Assembly: GCF_000695095.2 (NCBI RefSeq) | Contig: NZ_CP011454.1 | Location: 4,340,001-4,404,000, forward strand | From: Gemmatimonas phototrophica | GTDB taxonomy: Bacteria > Gemmatimonadota > Gemmatimonadetes > Gemmatimonadales > Gemmatimonadaceae | Reading direction: 5' to 3' | Length of the DNA stretch: 64,000 bases | Shown here: piece by piece, positions 45,088-54,159 of the stretch | Layout: each line of letters begins with the position of its first letter | Numbering within the stretch: position 1 is the stretch's first letter | Program-made: the position numbers and the translations under genes | Notes under the pieces: generated by a model | Database searches by the model: none | The model's input: only the letters and a program-made list of their open reading frames with translations | What the model was told of the DNA's origin: nothing

Positions 45088-46947
45088 CTACCGCCGCTGT
45101 GTCCCGGCCGTATCGGTTAGGGCCCGCATAAAGACCACCAGCGCACGCTGTTCCGTTGCTGACAGATTGAGCGGGTCAGGCGGCAACGTCTGGTTATCCA
45201 GCGTTATGCCAATGCCGGCGCCACCACCACGATTGTAGAAGTCCACAACCTGCTCCAGCGTCTGATACACACCGTTGTGCATGTACGGCGCCGTGAGCGC
45301 TACGTTGCGTATGGACGGCGTGCGGAAGGCGTATTTATGCGGTGCCGCGCGCGACAGGCGATACCGACCCACATCCGGATCTACCGTGGCGCGTCGTGTC
45401 ACCGCCTGCACCGGGGTTCCGAGCACCTCCACGTCTGACTTCTGATAGAACGGCGGGACGGTACCGTTGGTTAACGGCAGGAAGTGGCAGGTGGCACATT
45501 TGCCCTTTCCGACAAACACGTTGAAGCCAATGCGGGCGCTGTCATTCAAGACGGCCACGTTGCCTCGCAAGGCCTGGTCGACCGGTGAATCAAGTCGAGT
45601 CAGACTACGCTGGTACGCGGCCAACGCTGTCCGAATCCGCGCCGCGGAAACCATTGTGTCGCCACGCGCGGGCTCGTCGAAGAACGCCATTCGGAACTGC
45701 GCCGCCAGCGACGAATCGCGCCCGAGCGAGAGTGCAATCGCATCCAGACTCCCGTGCATCTCGTCGACATTCTCGACGACATCGGTCACCTGATCTTCGA
45801 GATAGGTGGTGCGCAGATCGGAAAAGACGCCAAGCTGCAGCCCGCTGTTGATGACGGTAGGCGTGTTGCGCGCCAACGGCGCGCCGCCGCGGGACCGATT
45901 GACCTTCAGGCCATCGGTAAACGCCTTCTCGGGCAAGTGGCAGGTGCTGCAAGCACGTCGATCATCACCCGAAAGGCGCGTGTCATGAAATAGCCGACGA
46001 CCAAGCTCCACCTGTGCGGCGGTCGCCATCTTGGCGTCCAGCGGAGCGAAGGCCAGAAGGTCAAACGCCGCTGAATCGAAGAGCGTTACGGCGTCCATGC
46101 GGAAAGCCCGCCGCTCGATGGGCGTACCAATCCCAAGCGAGGTCCGAACGGCGCGCACCGCGCGAGCGAGCGGGTTGGCGTGGTCGACAATGAAGGTGAA
46201 GTGATCGAACGACTCCCGATCCGTTGTCGTCCGCAGCATGACCCTCGCGTCAGTCAGCGCGGAATCAAGCGTGCCCCATGCTGATGCCGACGTACGATAC
46301 GGCGTGAGTGATCGTGCCACCCCTTCAAGCGCGTCGTCCGCTTCGGCCAGTGAGAGCCCCGCCACCGGCGAATCGAAGCCGGTGATACCGAGCGATACGA
46401 TACGGGCAATCTCGAGCTTGATGGCATCCCAGACACGGTCGTCGGTCACGACTTGTGTCCGCATGAGTGTCTGGACGCGCGCAAGGATCTGGCGCAATGT
46501 GCGCGTTTCCTGCACCAGCGCGTCACGCTCAGCAAGTGGCTCGTCACCAAAGAGCCCTTCTTCGATGACCTGGAAGCCGGTAGGCGCAAACACTGCCTCA
46601 GGCCCGTCGTTCTCCTCGACTTCAGGGAGCGCCGGGCCGTTCATCTCACGTGTCGACGTGGCGGCGTAGTATTCAAGGCCGAGCTCGGCGTGCTTGAACG
46701 CCCGTCGGGCATCCACGAATACCGCGCGGGCCTGCGCAATCGATGCCGGTGACGACATGGCAGCGAGCGCGGAGTCGAGCTGCTCGACGCGTGAGGCCAA
46801 GGAGTCGAGATCGGCGCGCCAGATGGCGGCGACTTGCATGGCTCGCGGATCGCCGGACGTTGTCGTCGCCTGGTCGGAAGTGGAGTCGGCGCAGGCGGTC
46901 AACAGCAGCCCGGCGAACAAGAGTGAGGTTACGCGATTCGTGTACAT
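45088..46947 (-). CDS. Imelysin-like/di-haem cytochrome c peroxidase (MauG-type) fusion lipoprotein
   Basis: The protein has 619 residues. A lipobox (LLLTAC) ends the signal. Residues about 30-270 form a helical domain with repeated Leu/Ala-rich helices and GFQVIEEGLFGDEP, resembling imelysin (M75) or EfeO-like proteins. The remainder is a bacterial cytochrome c peroxidase/MauG domain with two haem c sites CSTCH (about 331) and CATCH (about 482) and the KVNRSRGGAPLARNTPTVIN segment. It should act in the periplasm, reducing peroxide or oxidising a partner protein. The helical part may bind iron or a redox partner. Confidence 0.8.
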   Translation of the reverse strand: MYTNRVTSLLFAGLLLTACADSTSDQATTTSGDPRAMQVAAIWRADLDSLASRVEQLDSALAAMSSPASIAQARAVFVDARRAFKHAELGLEYYAATSTREMNGPALPEVEENDGPEAVFAPTGFQVIEEGLFGDEPLAERDALVQETRTLRQILARVQTLMRTQVVTDDRVWDAIKLEIARIVSLGITGFDSPVAGLSLAEADDALEGVARSLTPYRTSASAWGTLDSALTDARVMLRTTTDRESFDHFTFIVDHANPLARAVRAVRTSLGIGTPIERRAFRMDAVTLFDSAAFDLLAFAPLDAKMATAAQVELGRRLFHDTRLSGDDRRACSTCHLPEKAFTDGLKVNRSRGGAPLARNTPTVINSGLQLGVFSDLRTTYLEDQVTDVVENVDEMHGSLDAIALSLGRDSSLAAQFRMAFFDEPARGDTMVSAARIRTALAAYQRSLTRLDSPVDQALRGNVAVLNDSARIGFNVFVGKGKCATCHFLPLTNGTVPPFYQKSDVEVLGTPVQAVTRRATVDPDVGRYRLSRAAPHKYAFRTPSIRNVALTAPYMHNGVYQTLEQVVDFYNRGGGAGIGITLDNQTLPPDPLNLSATEQRALVVFMRALTDTAGTQRR

Positions 46948-46960
46948 GGGTATTGGAACG

Positions 46961-46993
46961 ACGCCGGCCCGGAACGCTGTCCCGGGCCGGCGT
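46961..46993 (-). terminator. Perfect 12-bp hairpin between two lipoprotein genes
   Basis: ACGCCGGCCCGG (46961-46972) and CCGGGCCGGCGT (46982-46993) are perfectly complementary around a 9-nt loop. No strong U-tract follows on the minus strand. It probably ends or attenuates the PhoX-like transcript before the peroxidase gene. Confidence 0.65.
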
Positions 46994-47013
46994 GCTGTTT
47001 CAGAGGGTGGCGC

Positions 47014-48477
47014 TTAGCGGGGCAATCCCTTCACGATGACCATCATGCTGGCCTGGTTTTCGTTCGGACGGAGAGTGCCGCCGTCAATGCCGCGGTACTT
47101 GTCGGCGCGCCACGAGTGCGGCTGCAACGCAATCACGAACGTATTGTTCTGCCCAAGCTCCGTTGACACATCAAGCATCGCACCGAACTCCCAGCCGGCC
47201 TTGCCCGCGGGACGAGCGCCCACCGCGTTGTACAGCGCGGCATCGGCCTCCGTGCGGCGGTGGTCCATTTCCAGTACCGGCTTCAGCTCACGCGTCGCGA
47301 TGTTGTACTGGTAGATGTACGCGTCGTGCGTCTCGTCGCCGTAGCCGTTGTCGTCTTCCTGGAAGTACGCGAAATTGGTGCCAACATACACGTTATCGAG
47401 GTTCTGGAAGATACGCGCAGCGTTCGTGGGCGACTTGTCATCGCCATCAGCAATCACTTCCAGCGTTCCCACCAGCGGATTGTTGGCGTCGAGGCGCAAG
47501 CGGTACGCGCGGCCGTACTTGCTGCGGCTATAGTCGGCGTTCACGCCAGTGTTGTTCTGGCCCGTGGCCACGAAGTAGATCTCGCGATTGTTGGCCGCTG
47601 ACCCCTTGCGGTAGTCGAGGTCTTCAACACGAGCAAAGCGGATGGCATTGAGCGTGACGCTGGCCTGCTGAATCTGACGGCCGCTGAGCGACTTCTGGTT
47701 CTCCACCTGCCGAAACTGCACCTGATACGTCTGGCCAACCACCATATCACGCTCGCGGATGTTGTTGTCCGTGCGCGCCAGCACATACAGGTTGCCGTTG
47801 TCCAGATCGCCAACGGTGTTCGACAGGTACATCGCGACCTGTCCGCCTTCCGTGCCCGAGTCGTCATCACCAATCACCACCACGGTGCGATTCGGGAAGG
47901 CTGCTTTGGAAAGTGGTACAGCGTTCTCCGCACTCCAACGGCCCATACCCGTAAGGTACCGCGGCGTATTGGCCGGGCCCGTCGGATCCACGGCGAGAAT
48001 CTGTGACTCTTCACCACTTTCACCAGCGGTGAGGAAGGCACTGAAGCCATGCTCTTCCACGGTCGCCAGCGAGGCTGAGCAGAGGCGGTACCGGCCAGCA
48101 GTGGAGTTCACGACATAGTCGCCGGAGATCGGCTTCAAGTCCTTGTCAAAGCGGATGCGAGATACCGCAAAGTTGTCTTCGTGATTCGTCAGCATGGTAA
48201 ACGTGCCGTCTACATTGCGGATGAATCCCGCGCCATCGGCCGAGCCACCGAAACGGAACGAAGGAGAGCCCGTGAGCTGGTCGTCAGAGCTGACGAGGCT
48301 ATAGATCTCCACACCCGACACCAGCGACTTGAGCAGCGCCGGCGTGACGGACTGATTCTTGAGCGCCACCGGAGCAATCACGGGCGCTTCAGTAGACGAG
48401 GAGTCATCGCCGCAGGCGGCGAGCAACGCACAGCTGGCGGCGGCCAGCAATGCAGACGAAAAGCGGACAGTACGCAT
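47014..48477 (-). CDS. PhoX-like (DUF839) lipoprotein
   Basis: The protein has 487 residues. The lipobox is LLAAC (about residue 22). The mature protein is a propeller-like chain with MLTNHEDNFAVSRIRFDKDL, SAFLTAGESGEESQILAVDP, DDDSGTEGGQVAMYLSN, LDYRKGSAANNREIYFVATG and FGAMLDVSTELGQNNTFVIA. The acidic NHED and calcium-like loops recall the DUF839/PhoX group, some of which are Ca/Fe-dependent alkaline phosphatases. Conserved catalytic residues cannot be confirmed by eye. ATG at 48477 gives the signal peptide. It precedes the peroxidase gene on the same strand and is divergent from the Rieske gene. Confidence 0.6.
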   Translation of the reverse strand: MRTVRFSSALLAAASCALLAACGDDSSSTEAPVIAPVALKNQSVTPALLKSLVSGVEIYSLVSSDDQLTGSPSFRFGGSADGAGFIRNVDGTFTMLTNHEDNFAVSRIRFDKDLKPISGDYVVNSTAGRYRLCSASLATVEEHGFSAFLTAGESGEESQILAVDPTGPANTPRYLTGMGRWSAENAVPLSKAAFPNRTVVVIGDDDSGTEGGQVAMYLSNTVGDLDNGNLYVLARTDNNIRERDMVVGQTYQVQFRQVENQKSLSGRQIQQASVTLNAIRFARVEDLDYRKGSAANNREIYFVATGQNNTGVNADYSRSKYGRAYRLRLDANNPLVGTLEVIADGDDKSPTNAARIFQNLDNVYVGTNFAYFQEDDNGYGDETHDAYIYQYNIATRELKPVLEMDHRRTEADAALYNAVGARPAGKAGWEFGAMLDVSTELGQNNTFVIALQPHSWRADKYRGIDGGTLRPNENQASMMVIVKGLPR

Positions 48478-48723
48478 GGAATGGTCTTGCGTCGATGTGA
48501 ATGGAGCACGGCGGCGTGCCGTGGACGCAGGACATACGCGGGACATCATGACGGAACGCGCACCGCACGGTCACCGCCATGTCACGTCGACGCAACAGAA
48601 CGGCTCGTCGTCTACGGTCTGGACCGTGTTGGTCGATACTCACGTGATTCACTTCGCTATCCGTGACCGTCCAGTGACAGTCGGCGTCTTGGTACGCGCT
48701 TTGCGGCGACACACGTTGCCATC

Positions 48724-49185
48724 ATGACATCCGTTCATCGTCGCGAGGCGCTTACCCTTGTCGCCGCGTGCTGCATCTGCCCCGGGCTACTGGCCTGTGC
48801 GGCCTCGCAGGATGCCCCAACCCAACCGGCGCCGACCGACGACAATGACGACGCCCTGACCATTACCCCCACTACGGTACAGGTGCGGGTAGATCTCGTG
48901 CCACGGCTTACCCAACCTGAAGGCGTCGCCATCTTTCTCGTGGCCGGAGTGATTGTGGTGCGCGAACGCATTGACAGCTTTCAGGCGTTCTCATCTGTAT
49001 GTCCGCATGCCGGCTGTGGCGTCTCTGTACTCAATGGGCGGCGTCTGGAATGCCCCTGCCACGGTTCCGCGTTCGATCTGGCGGGCGCCCGACTCGAGGG
49101 GCCCGCCCCGTCGGGTCTTGCGCGGCTCGCCAGCTCGTTCGACCCAGCACGGCAGGTGCTTTCGATAGACCGTCGTATCCTGTAG
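48724..49185 (+). CDS. Rieske 2Fe-2S lipoprotein, Tat-type signal
   Basis: The protein has 153 residues. A twin-Arg start (HRREALTLV) and a Cys at position 25 (LLAC) suggest a Tat-exported lipoprotein. The Rieske domain carries CPHAGC (C93, H95, with C98) and CPCHGSAF (C110, H113, with C112), giving cluster ligands C93, H95, C110, H113 and the supporting disulfide C98-C112. It should carry electrons on the periplasmic side. No cytochrome b is adjacent, so it is not a bc1 subunit by context; it may serve the exported redox proteins encoded next to it. Confidence 0.87.
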   Translation: MTSVHRREALTLVAACCICPGLLACAASQDAPTQPAPTDDNDDALTITPTTVQVRVDLVPRLTQPEGVAIFLVAGVIVVRERIDSFQAFSSVCPHAGCGVSVLNGRRLECPCHGSAFDLAGARLEGPAPSGLARLASSFDPARQVLSIDRRIL

Positions 49186-49344
49186 CCGCCCAGTGCTGGG
49201 TCCGGTCAGTCGAATTCACCGTCCCCTGTCAGGTTTTCTCCGTTTGCGGGGCGGGAGTCCGGGGCGCACCGTCAGGCAGTCGCAAAAGACACCCACCACC
49301 CAGGCTGGTCCGCTCGCTTCCCGTCCGGGAAGAGGAGGAAGTAC

Positions 49345-50610
49345 ATGTCGGTCGTAATGCCCACCCCGGAGCCCGGAGTCGTAACCCGGCTTGCCAGCGG
49401 CGATGAAGACGCGCTCGTAACGCTGTATCGACAGGAATACGATACCCTGCTCGCCGCCGCGGGCGAGACGCTGGGGCACGAGCTCGCCCACTTCCGCGGC
49501 CGCGTGACGCATAAGGCGATGCTTGATGCCTGGCAGGCACGGGCGCGCTTCCTCAATCCAACGGCGTTCACCGCCTTTCTTGAAGAAGCCATTCGTCAGG
49601 AGTCGGATATCCAGCGGCGAAAGCATGCCGCCCTGCATCGACGGGAGGGGCAAGGACAGGCCCATGTGACGATAGCGACCGTGGATGAGGCCGTGCGGGC
49701 ACTGCTGGACGAACTGCATGCGCCGGCCGCTGATCATGCGAAGGCCGCCGAGGAAGCACGGGCCGTCAAGCGGGCCCACACCATGGAGCACGTGGAACGC
49801 GTGGCACAAAAACCCAAATGGCTGCTATACGGTGCCATTGGCGTGGTGGCCGTCATTGCCATCGTGGGCGCGCAGCGTATGCTCGACAAAGCCGGCACCG
49901 AAGTCGCCGTGGATCGCGCCTTCAAGGGTGACGACGTACAGAACCTGTCATCCAACAAGGGGCAGCGCGGTACCCTCACGCTGCGTGATGGCACCAAGGC
50001 CACCATGGGCAGTGAGACACGGATGCGCGTGCCGGCCGAGTTCAGTACCACGCAGCGGACCATTGAGTTGGAAGGCACCGCCACCTTTGTGGTGGCACCG
50101 TCCACCAATCCGCAGGGGCCGGCGTTTGCGGTTCGTGCCGGGAATACCACCGTCACTGCCACCGGCACCGTCTTTACCGTACGCAACTACCCCGAAGATT
50201 CGGCGGTCGTTGTGCAGGTCACCGAGGGCGTCGTCGAGTTCAAAGATCGCACCACCGATGCCGTGCAGTCGGTCAAGGCCGGAGAGGCGGTGCGGTATGC
50301 CAACGGAGCCATGAGCCCGCTGGAAGGGGTGGCGCGCGACGTGGCGCTGGCCTGGACCCGTGACAGCATCGTCTTTGACAACGCGCCGCTCAAACGGGTG
50401 ATCCCCGAGCTCGTCCGGTGGTTTGGTCTCAACGCCGCCCTCGTTGACGAGTCGGCCGGCGACCGCCCGGTGTCCATGCGCATAGCGCTCAATTCGTCGG
50501 GGGAGGCCACGCAGGCGCTGACCAAGGCAGCCAACCTGTCGCTGTCGTTCGGCAAGGATGATCGACTGGAGTTCAGCGCGGCACCGGAGACGGCGACGAC
50601 GAAGAAATAG
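49345..50610 (+). CDS. FecR-type regulator with an ECF sigma region-2-like N-terminus
   Basis: The protein has 421 residues. GGAGGAAG precedes the ATG. Residues about 14-100 (LASGDEDALVTLYRQEYDTL, RFLNPTAFTAFLEEAIRQE) match the layout of sigma-70 region 2. A helical linker and one membrane helix (WLLYGAIGVVAVIAIVGA, about 154-171) follow. Then come a FecR periplasmic domain (GTLTLRDGTKATMGSETRMR, GTATFVV, VTATGTVFTVR) and a C-terminal STN/DUF4974-like domain. FecR proteins normally have a short anti-sigma N-terminus; here that part is replaced by a sigma-like one. No separate sigma gene or TonB receptor is adjacent. Confidence 0.75.
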   Translation: MSVVMPTPEPGVVTRLASGDEDALVTLYRQEYDTLLAAAGETLGHELAHFRGRVTHKAMLDAWQARARFLNPTAFTAFLEEAIRQESDIQRRKHAALHRREGQGQAHVTIATVDEAVRALLDELHAPAADHAKAAEEARAVKRAHTMEHVERVAQKPKWLLYGAIGVVAVIAIVGAQRMLDKAGTEVAVDRAFKGDDVQNLSSNKGQRGTLTLRDGTKATMGSETRMRVPAEFSTTQRTIELEGTATFVVAPSTNPQGPAFAVRAGNTTVTATGTVFTVRNYPEDSAVVVQVTEGVVEFKDRTTDAVQSVKAGEAVRYANGAMSPLEGVARDVALAWTRDSIVFDNAPLKRVIPELVRWFGLNAALVDESAGDRPVSMRIALNSSGEATQALTKAANLSLSFGKDDRLEFSAAPETATTKK

Positions 50611-50616
50611 CGCCGC

Positions 50617-51384
50617 TTACCGGATCACGACCGATACGCCGACGGGGACATACGTGTACAACCACGACAAGTCTCCGTCGGCAAGTCGTATGCACCCGTG
50701 CGTGGTATTGGAGCCAATGGACAACTGATCCGTGGTGCCATGCAGCATGTATCCGTTCCCGAGATCCAGCGCGTGGCGCCCCAGTTCTCCCTGCAGTCGT
50801 CGATTGCGCGTGGCGATGGGCGGAATGAAGAGCGTCCCGTCGAAGACCAGATGTTCGTTCACCGGCAACGGCAAAAACGCCGTCCGGCCGCGCCGGATGA
50901 CGCCCACTACGGAATCCCGGACCAGTAAACGGTCTCCGTTGCGCAACGGGACCGCCGTCCGCAGCTGGGCCAATCGGAGCCCGTGCTGCTGTGCGACTTC
51001 GGCGTAATGCCAGTCGGGGGGGAGCCACACGGGGTTGGCGCGTTTTCCCAGGACCACGAGCCGCCCCCGCGGTGTCGCGAAGCGCCATGTCCGTCCGGCG
51101 TACACCAGATCCCGGCCGGACGCGACGGACACCGGCGCCGTATGCAGGGTGTCGGGACCGGCAATGACCCACAGCCGCCGCGCCGCCACCGAGATGACGA
51201 GCCGTACGTTGCGCGGGGTCAGCACGAAACGCGGCGCGCTGATGACCGGGACCGTGGCCGATGGCAGCAGCGCAGATGCCGCCGCCATGTGCGGCGGCGG
51301 CGGGGCAAGGGTATTGACACTCGGTACGCTGGCGGCGGTGGCGCACCCGGAGGTGGCCACCACCAGCAGCAGACAGTATCGCAT
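50617..51384 (-). CDS. L,D-transpeptidase (YkuD)
   Basis: The protein has 255 residues. The start MRYCLLLVVATSGC is a lipoprotein signal with a C at about residue 14. The catalytic domain ends in SIGSNTTHGCIRLADGDLSW, with catalytic Cys in HGCIRL and the companion His. Members cross-link peptidoglycan or attach proteins to it by 3-3 or Lys/mDAP bonds. AAGGTG precedes the ATG at 51384; a GTG at 51390 is in frame. It lies 8 nt after the stop codon of an outer membrane protein gene on the same strand. Confidence 0.9.
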   Translation of the reverse strand: MRYCLLLVVATSGCATAASVPSVNTLAPPPPHMAAASALLPSATVPVISAPRFVLTPRNVRLVISVAARRLWVIAGPDTLHTAPVSVASGRDLVYAGRTWRFATPRGRLVVLGKRANPVWLPPDWHYAEVAQQHGLRLAQLRTAVPLRNGDRLLVRDSVVGVIRRGRTAFLPLPVNEHLVFDGTLFIPPIATRNRRLQGELGRHALDLGNGYMLHGTTDQLSIGSNTTHGCIRLADGDLSWLYTYVPVGVSVVIR

Positions 51385-51392
51385 CAACACCT

Positions 51393-52469: not shown

Positions 52470-52725
52470 GGTACTCCTGGACGGTGGCGTGAGCCGTATG
52501 GCGCGCCCCAAGGGCGCTCCCTGCATGCAGTGCAAGAGCCGTGCGCCAACTGGCGTGCTCAGCCCACACCGTGTGACCTGCGGCGCGAACCGTTTTCCCT
52601 ACTTGTGCGTAGAGCTTTTCGGACGCCGTGCTCATGCGGCGTCGGCTGTGCTCGTCATTTCAGGTCGCGTCCCTCCGTATCCGGCTGCCCTCCGCGGCTG
52701 GTCCCGTATTTCATACAGCATCAAC

Positions 52726-54159
52726 ATGTCTTTTCCTTTACTCGCCGCGGCGCGCCATATGGCGTATGCCGTGGCTGTGGCCGCCCTCTCCGTCTCCTCG
52801 GTTGTGCACGCGCAGCCGGTGGGCCAACCGCCAGTGGGCGGTGGGCGTGGTCGCCCCGGGGCGCCGCCGGTGGCACCCACCGTGCTTCCCGACAGCCTGC
52901 TCCAGACCTCGCTCCGGGTGTTTCTCGACTGTCAAGGTGGCGTCCGGGGATGCGACCGCACGTTTTTTGTGCAGGAGATGGGGTACGTGAACTGGGTGCG
53001 CGATCGCTTTGACAGTGATGTGCATCTGCTGCTCACGTCGCTCAATGCCGCCAACGGCGGACGCCAGATTACTGTCAACTTCCTTGGACAGAAGGCGTAC
53101 ACCACCAAGGTTGACACGCTCACCATCACCACGCTCCCCAACGATGCGGATGATGTGGTGCGACGCGAATTGCTGCGCACCTTTCAGCTCGGGTTGGCGC
53201 CGTATGTGGCCCGCACGCCCATCGCGTCGCGGTTGCGGGTGGGGCTCATGAATGGCCTGGTGGCGCCACAGATGAACTCGCGCGCCGTCAAGGATCGCTG
53301 GAACCTCTGGCTCTATCGGATCGACGGCAATCTCAATGCATCAGGTGAACAGCTGGTCAAGACCACCAACCTGTCCACCTCACTCTCGGCGGCGCGCACC
53401 ACGGAAAAGTGGAAGATCAATCTGGGCGGCACCGGCAGCTACAACGAACGGGATTTCAAGGTGTTCGTGGCCAATCAAGCCAACCCGGCCATCCGCGACA
53501 CGGTATCGGTGGTGGTGCTGCAGCGGGCGGCCAACACCAATGCGCTGTTCGGGCGCACCATCAACGCTCATTGGACGGCGGGGCTCAAGGTCTCGGCCGG
53601 GTTCAGCGAAGTCCTCAACCAGAAGATGGCGCTGCGGGTCTCGCCGGCGCTGGAGTACAACTACTTCCCCTGGAGCGAGGCCACGCGGCGGCAGCTCACC
53701 GCCCTGTATTACGTGGGTCCCAACTACTACCGCTATTACAACACCACCGTCTTCGAACGGGATGAGGAGACGCGGGTCAACCACACGCTGCTGTTGGCGC
53801 TCACGCAGCGGCAGAAGTGGGGCAACACCAACCTCACACTCGAAGGCTCGCAGTACCTGCACGACATGCAGCGCAACCACGTCACCCTGTCGGGGTTCGT
53901 GGACCTGCGCCTGGGACGTGGGTTCTCGCTCAACTTCCGCGGCTCGGCCTCACGCGTGCGCGACCAGATCTACATTGCCGCCAACGCGCAGTCGGAGCGG
54001 GATATCCTCACGCAGCGTCAGCAGCTGCAGACGAACTTCCGCTACAACGTGAATGTGGGCATGGGTTATACCTTCGGCTCCATCTACAACACCGTCGTCA
54101 ACCAGCGCTTCGGCAATCTGGGCGAGCTCGGACGCCGCTTCGGTTTCTTCGGCGGGTAA
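52726..54159 (+). CDS. Outer membrane beta-barrel protein, unknown function
   Basis: The protein has 477 residues. A signal peptide (MAYAVAVAALSVSSVVHAQ) precedes an N-terminal globular part (TSLRVFLDCQGGVRGCDRTFF, LPNDADDVVRREL) and a long C-terminal region of alternating strands ending in FGFFGG, a terminal aromatic typical of OM barrels. It lacks a recognised porin family. The ATG at 52726 is used because the frame extends upstream to 52024 antisense to the preceding gene. Its role is unknown. Confidence 0.6.
   Translation: MSFPLLAAARHMAYAVAVAALSVSSVVHAQPVGQPPVGGGRGRPGAPPVAPTVLPDSLLQTSLRVFLDCQGGVRGCDRTFFVQEMGYVNWVRDRFDSDVHLLLTSLNAANGGRQITVNFLGQKAYTTKVDTLTITTLPNDADDVVRRELLRTFQLGLAPYVARTPIASRLRVGLMNGLVAPQMNSRAVKDRWNLWLYRIDGNLNASGEQLVKTTNLSTSLSAARTTEKWKINLGGTGSYNERDFKVFVANQANPAIRDTVSVVVLQRAANTNALFGRTINAHWTAGLKVSAGFSEVLNQKMALRVSPALEYNYFPWSEATRRQLTALYYVGPNYYRYYNTTVFERDEETRVNHTLLLALTQRQKWGNTNLTLEGSQYLHDMQRNHVTLSGFVDLRLGRGFSLNFRGSASRVRDQIYIAANAQSERDILTQRQQLQTNFRYNVNVGMGYTFGSIYNTVVNQRFGNLGELGRRFGFFGG

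Follow-up and report, generated by a model that had tools for sequence, protein, structure and literature searches.

Class I anti-sigma factors bind region 4 of the sigma factor (sigma4) through helices 1-3 and region 2 (sigma2) through helix 4, which lies over the beta-prime-binding face (PMC7406223). The contact of the sigma factor itself to beta-prime is the acidic (DAED) motif of region 2.2 (PMC8999054). Several described systems depart from a simple sigma/anti-sigma pair. IutY of Pseudomonas putida (ECF243) is a single polypeptide in which one membrane helix connects a cytosolic sigma part to a FecR-type part in the periplasm, and its working sigma domain is released by Prc/RseP (PMC5411451). 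PhyR of the alphaproteobacterial general stress response titrates an anti-sigma by means of a degenerate sigma-like domain and is a precedent for mimicry (PMC8103513). Split sigma factors exist as well (PMC8103513), and in the SigO-RsoA system of Bacillus subtilis, RsoA is sigma2-only.

We analysed a stretch of 64,000 nucleotides (the window) from the complete 4.7 Mb genome of Gemmatimonas phototrophica, which contains an open reading frame (ORF) of 421 residues combining a sigma2-like and a FecR part. IutY is the nearest known protein to this fusion and has the same order of parts, but IutY has a complete working sigma and adjoins the receptor gene iutA, whereas the fusion is without sigma4, has an inverted core contact and is an orphan. 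A sigma/anti-sigma fusion alone is thus not unprecedented, and the statement in a preliminary description of this DNA that the two are normally separate has to be qualified by the known hybrids (PMC5411451, PMC8999054). Like FecI/FecR pairs, the fusion has a FecI-related sigma2, a single membrane helix followed by a periplasmic FecR domain, and a probable helix 4; unlike them, it is one protein rather than two, lacks helices 1-3 and sigma4, and has no FecI gene next door. As in PhyR, the residues of its sigma-like domain that would bind core and promoter are degenerate. However, PhyR is cytosolic and has a receiver domain with sigma2- and sigma4-like parts, while the fusion has sigma2 only and a membrane FecR sensor, and Pfam finds no C-terminal receiver domain in it. 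RsoA shares the sigma2-only architecture, but the fusion is membrane-bound, has lost the core contact and has no sigma4-only partner that we could find. Compared with ECF sigma factors in general, region 2 is present, and region 4 and the acidic region 2.2 contact to the beta-prime clamp are absent. The features of the locus are as follows.

49227-49247, forward strand: upstream element TGTCAGG-N5-7-CGTTTGC, 21 bases, about 100 nt 5' of the start codon
49333-49338, forward strand: Shine-Dalgarno sequence AGGAGG, 6 nt 5' of the ATG, from sequence and similar in relatives
49345-50610, forward strand: ORF of 421 aa with sigma2-like, helix-4-like, membrane, FecR and FecR_C-like parts, common to about 80 Gemmatimonadaceae genomes
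49372-49644, forward strand: degenerate ECF (FecI-type) sigma region 2, residues 10-100
49495-49512, forward strand: residues 51-56 (RGRVTH), the charge-inverted site of the region 2.2 core-binding motif A-E-[DE]-x-x-Q
49675-49725, forward strand: probable remnant of anti-sigma helix 4, residues 111-127 (ATVDEAVRALLDELHAP), suggestive and not proven
49735-49806, forward strand: fusion-specific juxtamembrane helix, residues 131-154, with a near-invariant H149
49816-49878, forward strand: single membrane helix, residues about 158 to 178-181, with a basic N-flank and a predicted N-in orientation
49945-50238, forward strand: FecR domain (PF04773), residues 201-298, E=2.7e-12 in Pfam, predicted periplasmic
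50368-50493, forward strand: FecR_C-like segment (PF16344), residues 342-383, sub-threshold at E=0.0048 in Pfam

The start codon is common to the orthologues. A full-length AF2 model of low confidence (pLDDT 53), built from five sequences, served for the membrane helix and the strand order only. The single membrane helix and the PF04773 match agree with the preliminary description, which had a membrane helix joining sigma2 to FecR. The C-terminal part, described there as STN-like, is not STN; its only match is the sub-threshold one to FecR_C.

Sigma region 2 at the N-terminus

On its own, the window protein gives weak NCBIfam sigma matches (SigY, E=0.0045; Sig70_bacteroi1, E=0.0096, N-terminal piece) and no match to Pfam Sigma70_r2, so the assignment to sigma2 is marginal on that basis and is settled by family comparison. 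We aligned 46 orthologues of identical layout from across Gemmatimonadaceae. TIGR02985 is matched by 41 of their 46 N-termini (best 2.7e-8), SigE-fam_strep by 31/46 and Pfam Sigma70_r2 by 14/46. The family profile retrieves RpoE from the PDB at E=1.8e-5, and in profile-profile comparison it matches the Gemmatimonadota FecI profile with a probability of 99.4% and E=2e-21. An AF2 model of the N-terminus was built from five sequences (pLDDT 62). Its best Foldseek match is sigma-E region 2 (4lup), with a TM of 0.69 by target and an E of only 0.08, and the top 34 rows of VIA-align 2 are all sigma factors, with Z from 10.1 down to 5.4. Both programs assign sigma region 2 to residues 6-105.

These results confirm that residues 1-100 have the fold of sigma region 2 and not an anti-sigma fold, which HMM, profile-profile and fold comparison rule out for residues 1-110. 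The preliminary description had read the first ~100 residues as an ECF sigma region 2 and had proposed structure prediction as a check; the same three comparisons bear this reading out, and the predicted structure aligns to sigma region 2 with Z of about 10.

Contact residues and the linker

For the residue comparison, the 46 fusions were set against E. coli RpoE (NC_000913) and 22 FecI proteins. RpoE position 48 is acidic in 22/22 FecI proteins, but it is acidic in 0/46 fusions and basic in 44/46. Position 47 is likewise acidic in 22/22 FecI proteins versus 0/46 fusions; we note that E. coli RpoE carries P47, and position 48 is therefore the telling one. At position 51, Q is found in all 22 FecI proteins and in 2/46 fusions. 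The ECF proteins of the same genome are acidic at both the RpoE 47 and 48 sites (14/14). The region 2.4 residues N80 and N84, which contact the promoter, are also lost in the fusions. In contrast to these contacts, region 2.1 stays close to the FecI consensus. At sites known to face helix 4 (taken from PMC7406223), the fusions carry L or F at RpoE position 22 (46/46), F or Y at 26 (42/46), R at 27 (36/46) and W at 58 (43/46). Some of the helix-4-facing sites in region 2.2 are altered too (RpoE 47 and 51), which counts against reading the domain as a sigma2 mimic. Residues conserved specifically in the fusions are R/K93 (46/46), H98 (35/46), R99 and H149 (near-invariant). As judged from these alignments, the contact to RNA polymerase is lost and the protein-facing side is retained.

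Pfam shows sigma region 4 neither in the window protein nor in the list of matches for the family, and the fusion also lacks the anti-sigma helices 1-3 of FecR. The segment at residues 111-127 has the family pattern TVDEAW..V...LH and resembles DVDAAW.RV..RL, which follows helices 1-3 in paired FecR proteins. In hhalign comparisons the linker matches FecR with P=4e-5 to 2e-3, against P=0.26 for FecI sigma4, and linkers above the 99th percentile of shuffles number 7/46 for FecR helix 4 versus 1/46 for sigma4. A sigma4 remnant was set aside on these values, but the comparison is not decisive because two FecI linkers match the linker HMM too (E about 2e-4 to 6e-4). The match to helix 4 is short, and the window copy has V in place of the motif W. 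The segment is therefore described here as probably a remnant of anti-sigma helix 4, on suggestive grounds. Since helices 1-3 pair with sigma4 and helix 4 pairs with sigma2, the fusion family seems to keep, in one polypeptide, one matched half of the two sigma/class I anti-sigma surfaces, with the other half lost.

Distribution, constraint and neighbourhood

The family profile was searched against 395 genomes of the phylum, and the window protein was used for one contig scan, the single search to reach beyond the phylum; the relatives named are Gemmatimonas and Gemmatimonadaceae MAGs, and distant hybrids may exist elsewhere. With scores of more than 100 bits, 81 copies occur in 80 of the 395 genomes, and all of these belong to a single bacterial family found in soil and fresh water. 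Below them the scores drop to 73 bits or less, and those matches have the ordinary size of FecI-type ECF proteins. In the same genome as the window, the best matches of the family profile after the fusion itself are two ECF genes beside FecR genes (3.6e-16 and 7.4e-14); the paired FecR proteins are encoded at genome positions 3423217 and 4210518. On this sequence evidence, the sigma2 part derives from a FecI-type sigma. The fusions are monophyletic with a support of 100/100 in both the sigma2 tree and the FecR tree, and this one clade in both trees makes a single origin likely. Among the papers searched, none treats FecR together with a sigma factor in Gemmatimonas.

The gene is usually single-copy and is kept in more than 20 genera. 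The dN/dS of the sigma2 part is 0.04-0.29 and lies below that of the FecR domain in 11/11 pairs computed, so that sigma2 is the most constrained part of the protein. The residues for docking to RNA polymerase are lost, yet selection is firm across a whole bacterial family. The gene is absent from some genomes. At two loci (L011 and L013) it is interrupted, by an in-frame stop in G058 and by a frameshift in G060; these may be assembly errors or losses, and the gene may be dispensable in some species.

Neighbouring genes at 46 loci were compared as mechanically called ORFs, some of which are antisense artefacts (e.g. L058_6). Any one neighbour family recurs in at most 6 of the loci compared, and the fusion gene is an orphan; an operon partner was set aside, as no neighbour is conserved among these loci. 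A FecI-like sigma gene is within reach in only 2/46 loci, 3-4.5 kb away. The 46 loci, of which the distant ones carry no gene-by-gene annotation, show no conserved receptor neighbour, and the named neighbours in the window are Rieske, L,D-transpeptidase, PhoX and MauG proteins, besides two without a Pfam match. Because the gene is an orphan, the neighbourhood gives no pointer to sigma circuitry.

A gene for a small Rieske [2Fe-2S] protein (48724-49185) lies 159 bases upstream on the same strand and is found in one other compared locus only (L004). The genes at 45088-48549 adjoin the fusion gene in close relatives; they encode a PhoX-type phosphatase and a MauG di-haem cytochrome c peroxidase that has a long extension at its N-terminus. 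The L,D-transpeptidase (YkuD) gene (50617-51390) is convergent with the fusion gene, with 6 bases between them. The gene at 52600-54159 encodes a protein that is predicted to be outer-membrane-like and has no Pfam match; the counterpart of this gene in one relative (L054) lies directly 3' of the fusion gene.

The upstream element TGTCAGG-N5-7-CGTTTGC is conserved in most of the genus members compared although the flanking DNA varies, and it has a single exact copy in the whole genome. It is possibly a private promoter or operator. A regulon promoter was dropped as an interpretation, since one exact copy allows no regulon to be read from it.

The genome was also searched for partners. Its 37 PF08281 matches were examined for sigma4, and those without a nearby region 2 match were read individually. 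No sigma4-only protein was found among them: apart from one complete ECF sigma, the candidates are HTH proteins of the LuxR or response-regulator type. The partner sigma4 protein that the preliminary description had suggested looking for is therefore not found in this genome. The STN signalling domain has no match in the genome above the Pfam cut-off, and a classical FecA-type receptor is thus not detected. A homologue of site-2 protease (RseP) is present, at genome position 2280960.

Possible role of the fusion

Tentatively, we favour the reading that the fusion may follow a logic like that of PhyR and act in FecR-type signalling as a sigma2 mimic or decoy tethered to the membrane. One ancestral gene event would have fused a FecR membrane sensor with region 2 of an ECF sigma of the FecI type. 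The fusion would have shed sigma4 and helices 1-3 and kept sigma2 and probably helix 4; the core contact would have been lost and turned basic, and the anti-sigma-facing side of region 2.1 would have remained under strong selection. We suppose that, as long as no signal arrives, helix 4 shields the face of sigma2 in cis. When the FecR part senses a signal in the periplasm, the sigma2/helix 4 pair would open, with or without membrane cleavage, and the exposed sigma2 mimic could capture helix 4 of other FecR-type anti-sigmas and free their FecI-type sigmas, as PhyR acts on NepR. As a counter-point, the two parts of a pair fused in cis might stay locked together, with no action in trans, and the AF2 models (pLDDT 62 and 53, low to middling confidence) give no check of the packing of the cis helix 4 on sigma2. 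That the fusion founds a new class of envelope signalling, in which a membrane sigma2 mimic latched by its own helix 4 takes FecR-type anti-sigma helices upon a periplasmic signal and so turns FecI-type sigmas on, is a rather doubtful proposition.

A close rival, and a possible one, is that the protein is a receptor whose sigma2/helix 4 module has been repurposed outside sigma circuitry, as a structural or adaptor domain binding protein, DNA or lipid through a new basic surface (R/K at 93, H98 and R99). The fusion-specific basic and histidine residues, R/K93, H98 and H149, would suit such a role, as would an orphan gene without a sigma, anti-sigma or receptor gene conserved beside it, in a genome with no FecA-type STN receptor above the cut-off. 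Against it, region 2.1 is kept near the FecI consensus, helix-4-facing sites included, and this suggests a protein contact of the sigma type. We consider it unlikely that the fusion is a rebuilt anti-sigma that uses its membrane-bound sigma2/helix 4 part to retain or inhibit a sigma of the FecI type, for example with helix 4 on the sigma2 of the latter. Its partial FecR descent and the blocking of the beta-prime site of sigma2 by helix 4 (PMC7406223) would be in line with this role, but the helices 1-3 that grip sigma4 are missing and there is no adjacent FecI gene.

The preliminary description had also considered proteolytic release of the tethered sigma-like domain. The overall layout is that of IutY, with a cytosolic sigma part, one membrane helix and a FecR part (PMC5411451), and the site-2 protease homologue could serve the membrane proteolysis by which a signal would free a cytoplasmic piece to work as a sigma factor. 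Release of an active sigma is nevertheless disfavoured by the lack of sigma4 and by the loss of the core-binding acidic pair (46/46, basic in 44/46); the region 2.4 residues are lost as well, and no receptor gene is conserved nearby, unlike in iutA-iutY. With R/K rather than S/T at the site, a rescue by EcfP-like phosphorylation (PMC8999054) is unlikely. A releasable active sigma factor is accordingly quite improbable. It is very improbable that the fusion is half of a two-subunit sigma like RsoA/SigO. Its sigma2 stands alone and split sigma factors are known (PMC8103513), but the genome yields no sigma4-only protein to complement it and the core contact is inverted. Least probable of all is an eroding relic of a failed fusion. 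The in-frame stop in G058, the frameshift in G060 and the absence from some genomes would fit erosion, but the low dN/dS contradicts it, with strong purifying selection on sigma2 in 11/11 pairs, and the gene is kept in more than 20 genera.

The interpretation in the preliminary description is thus partly supported: of the two roles it considered, that of a sigma decoy appears to fit the residues best. If the mimic reading is true, the fusion would be, as far as we know, the first case of PhyR-like sigma mimicry on a membrane tether, and structural studies would gain a naturally occurring sigma2/helix 4 pair with a single interface. We also note that members of this family are likely to be labelled as anti-sigma (FecR) proteins in annotation, although they do not contain a complete anti-sigma domain.
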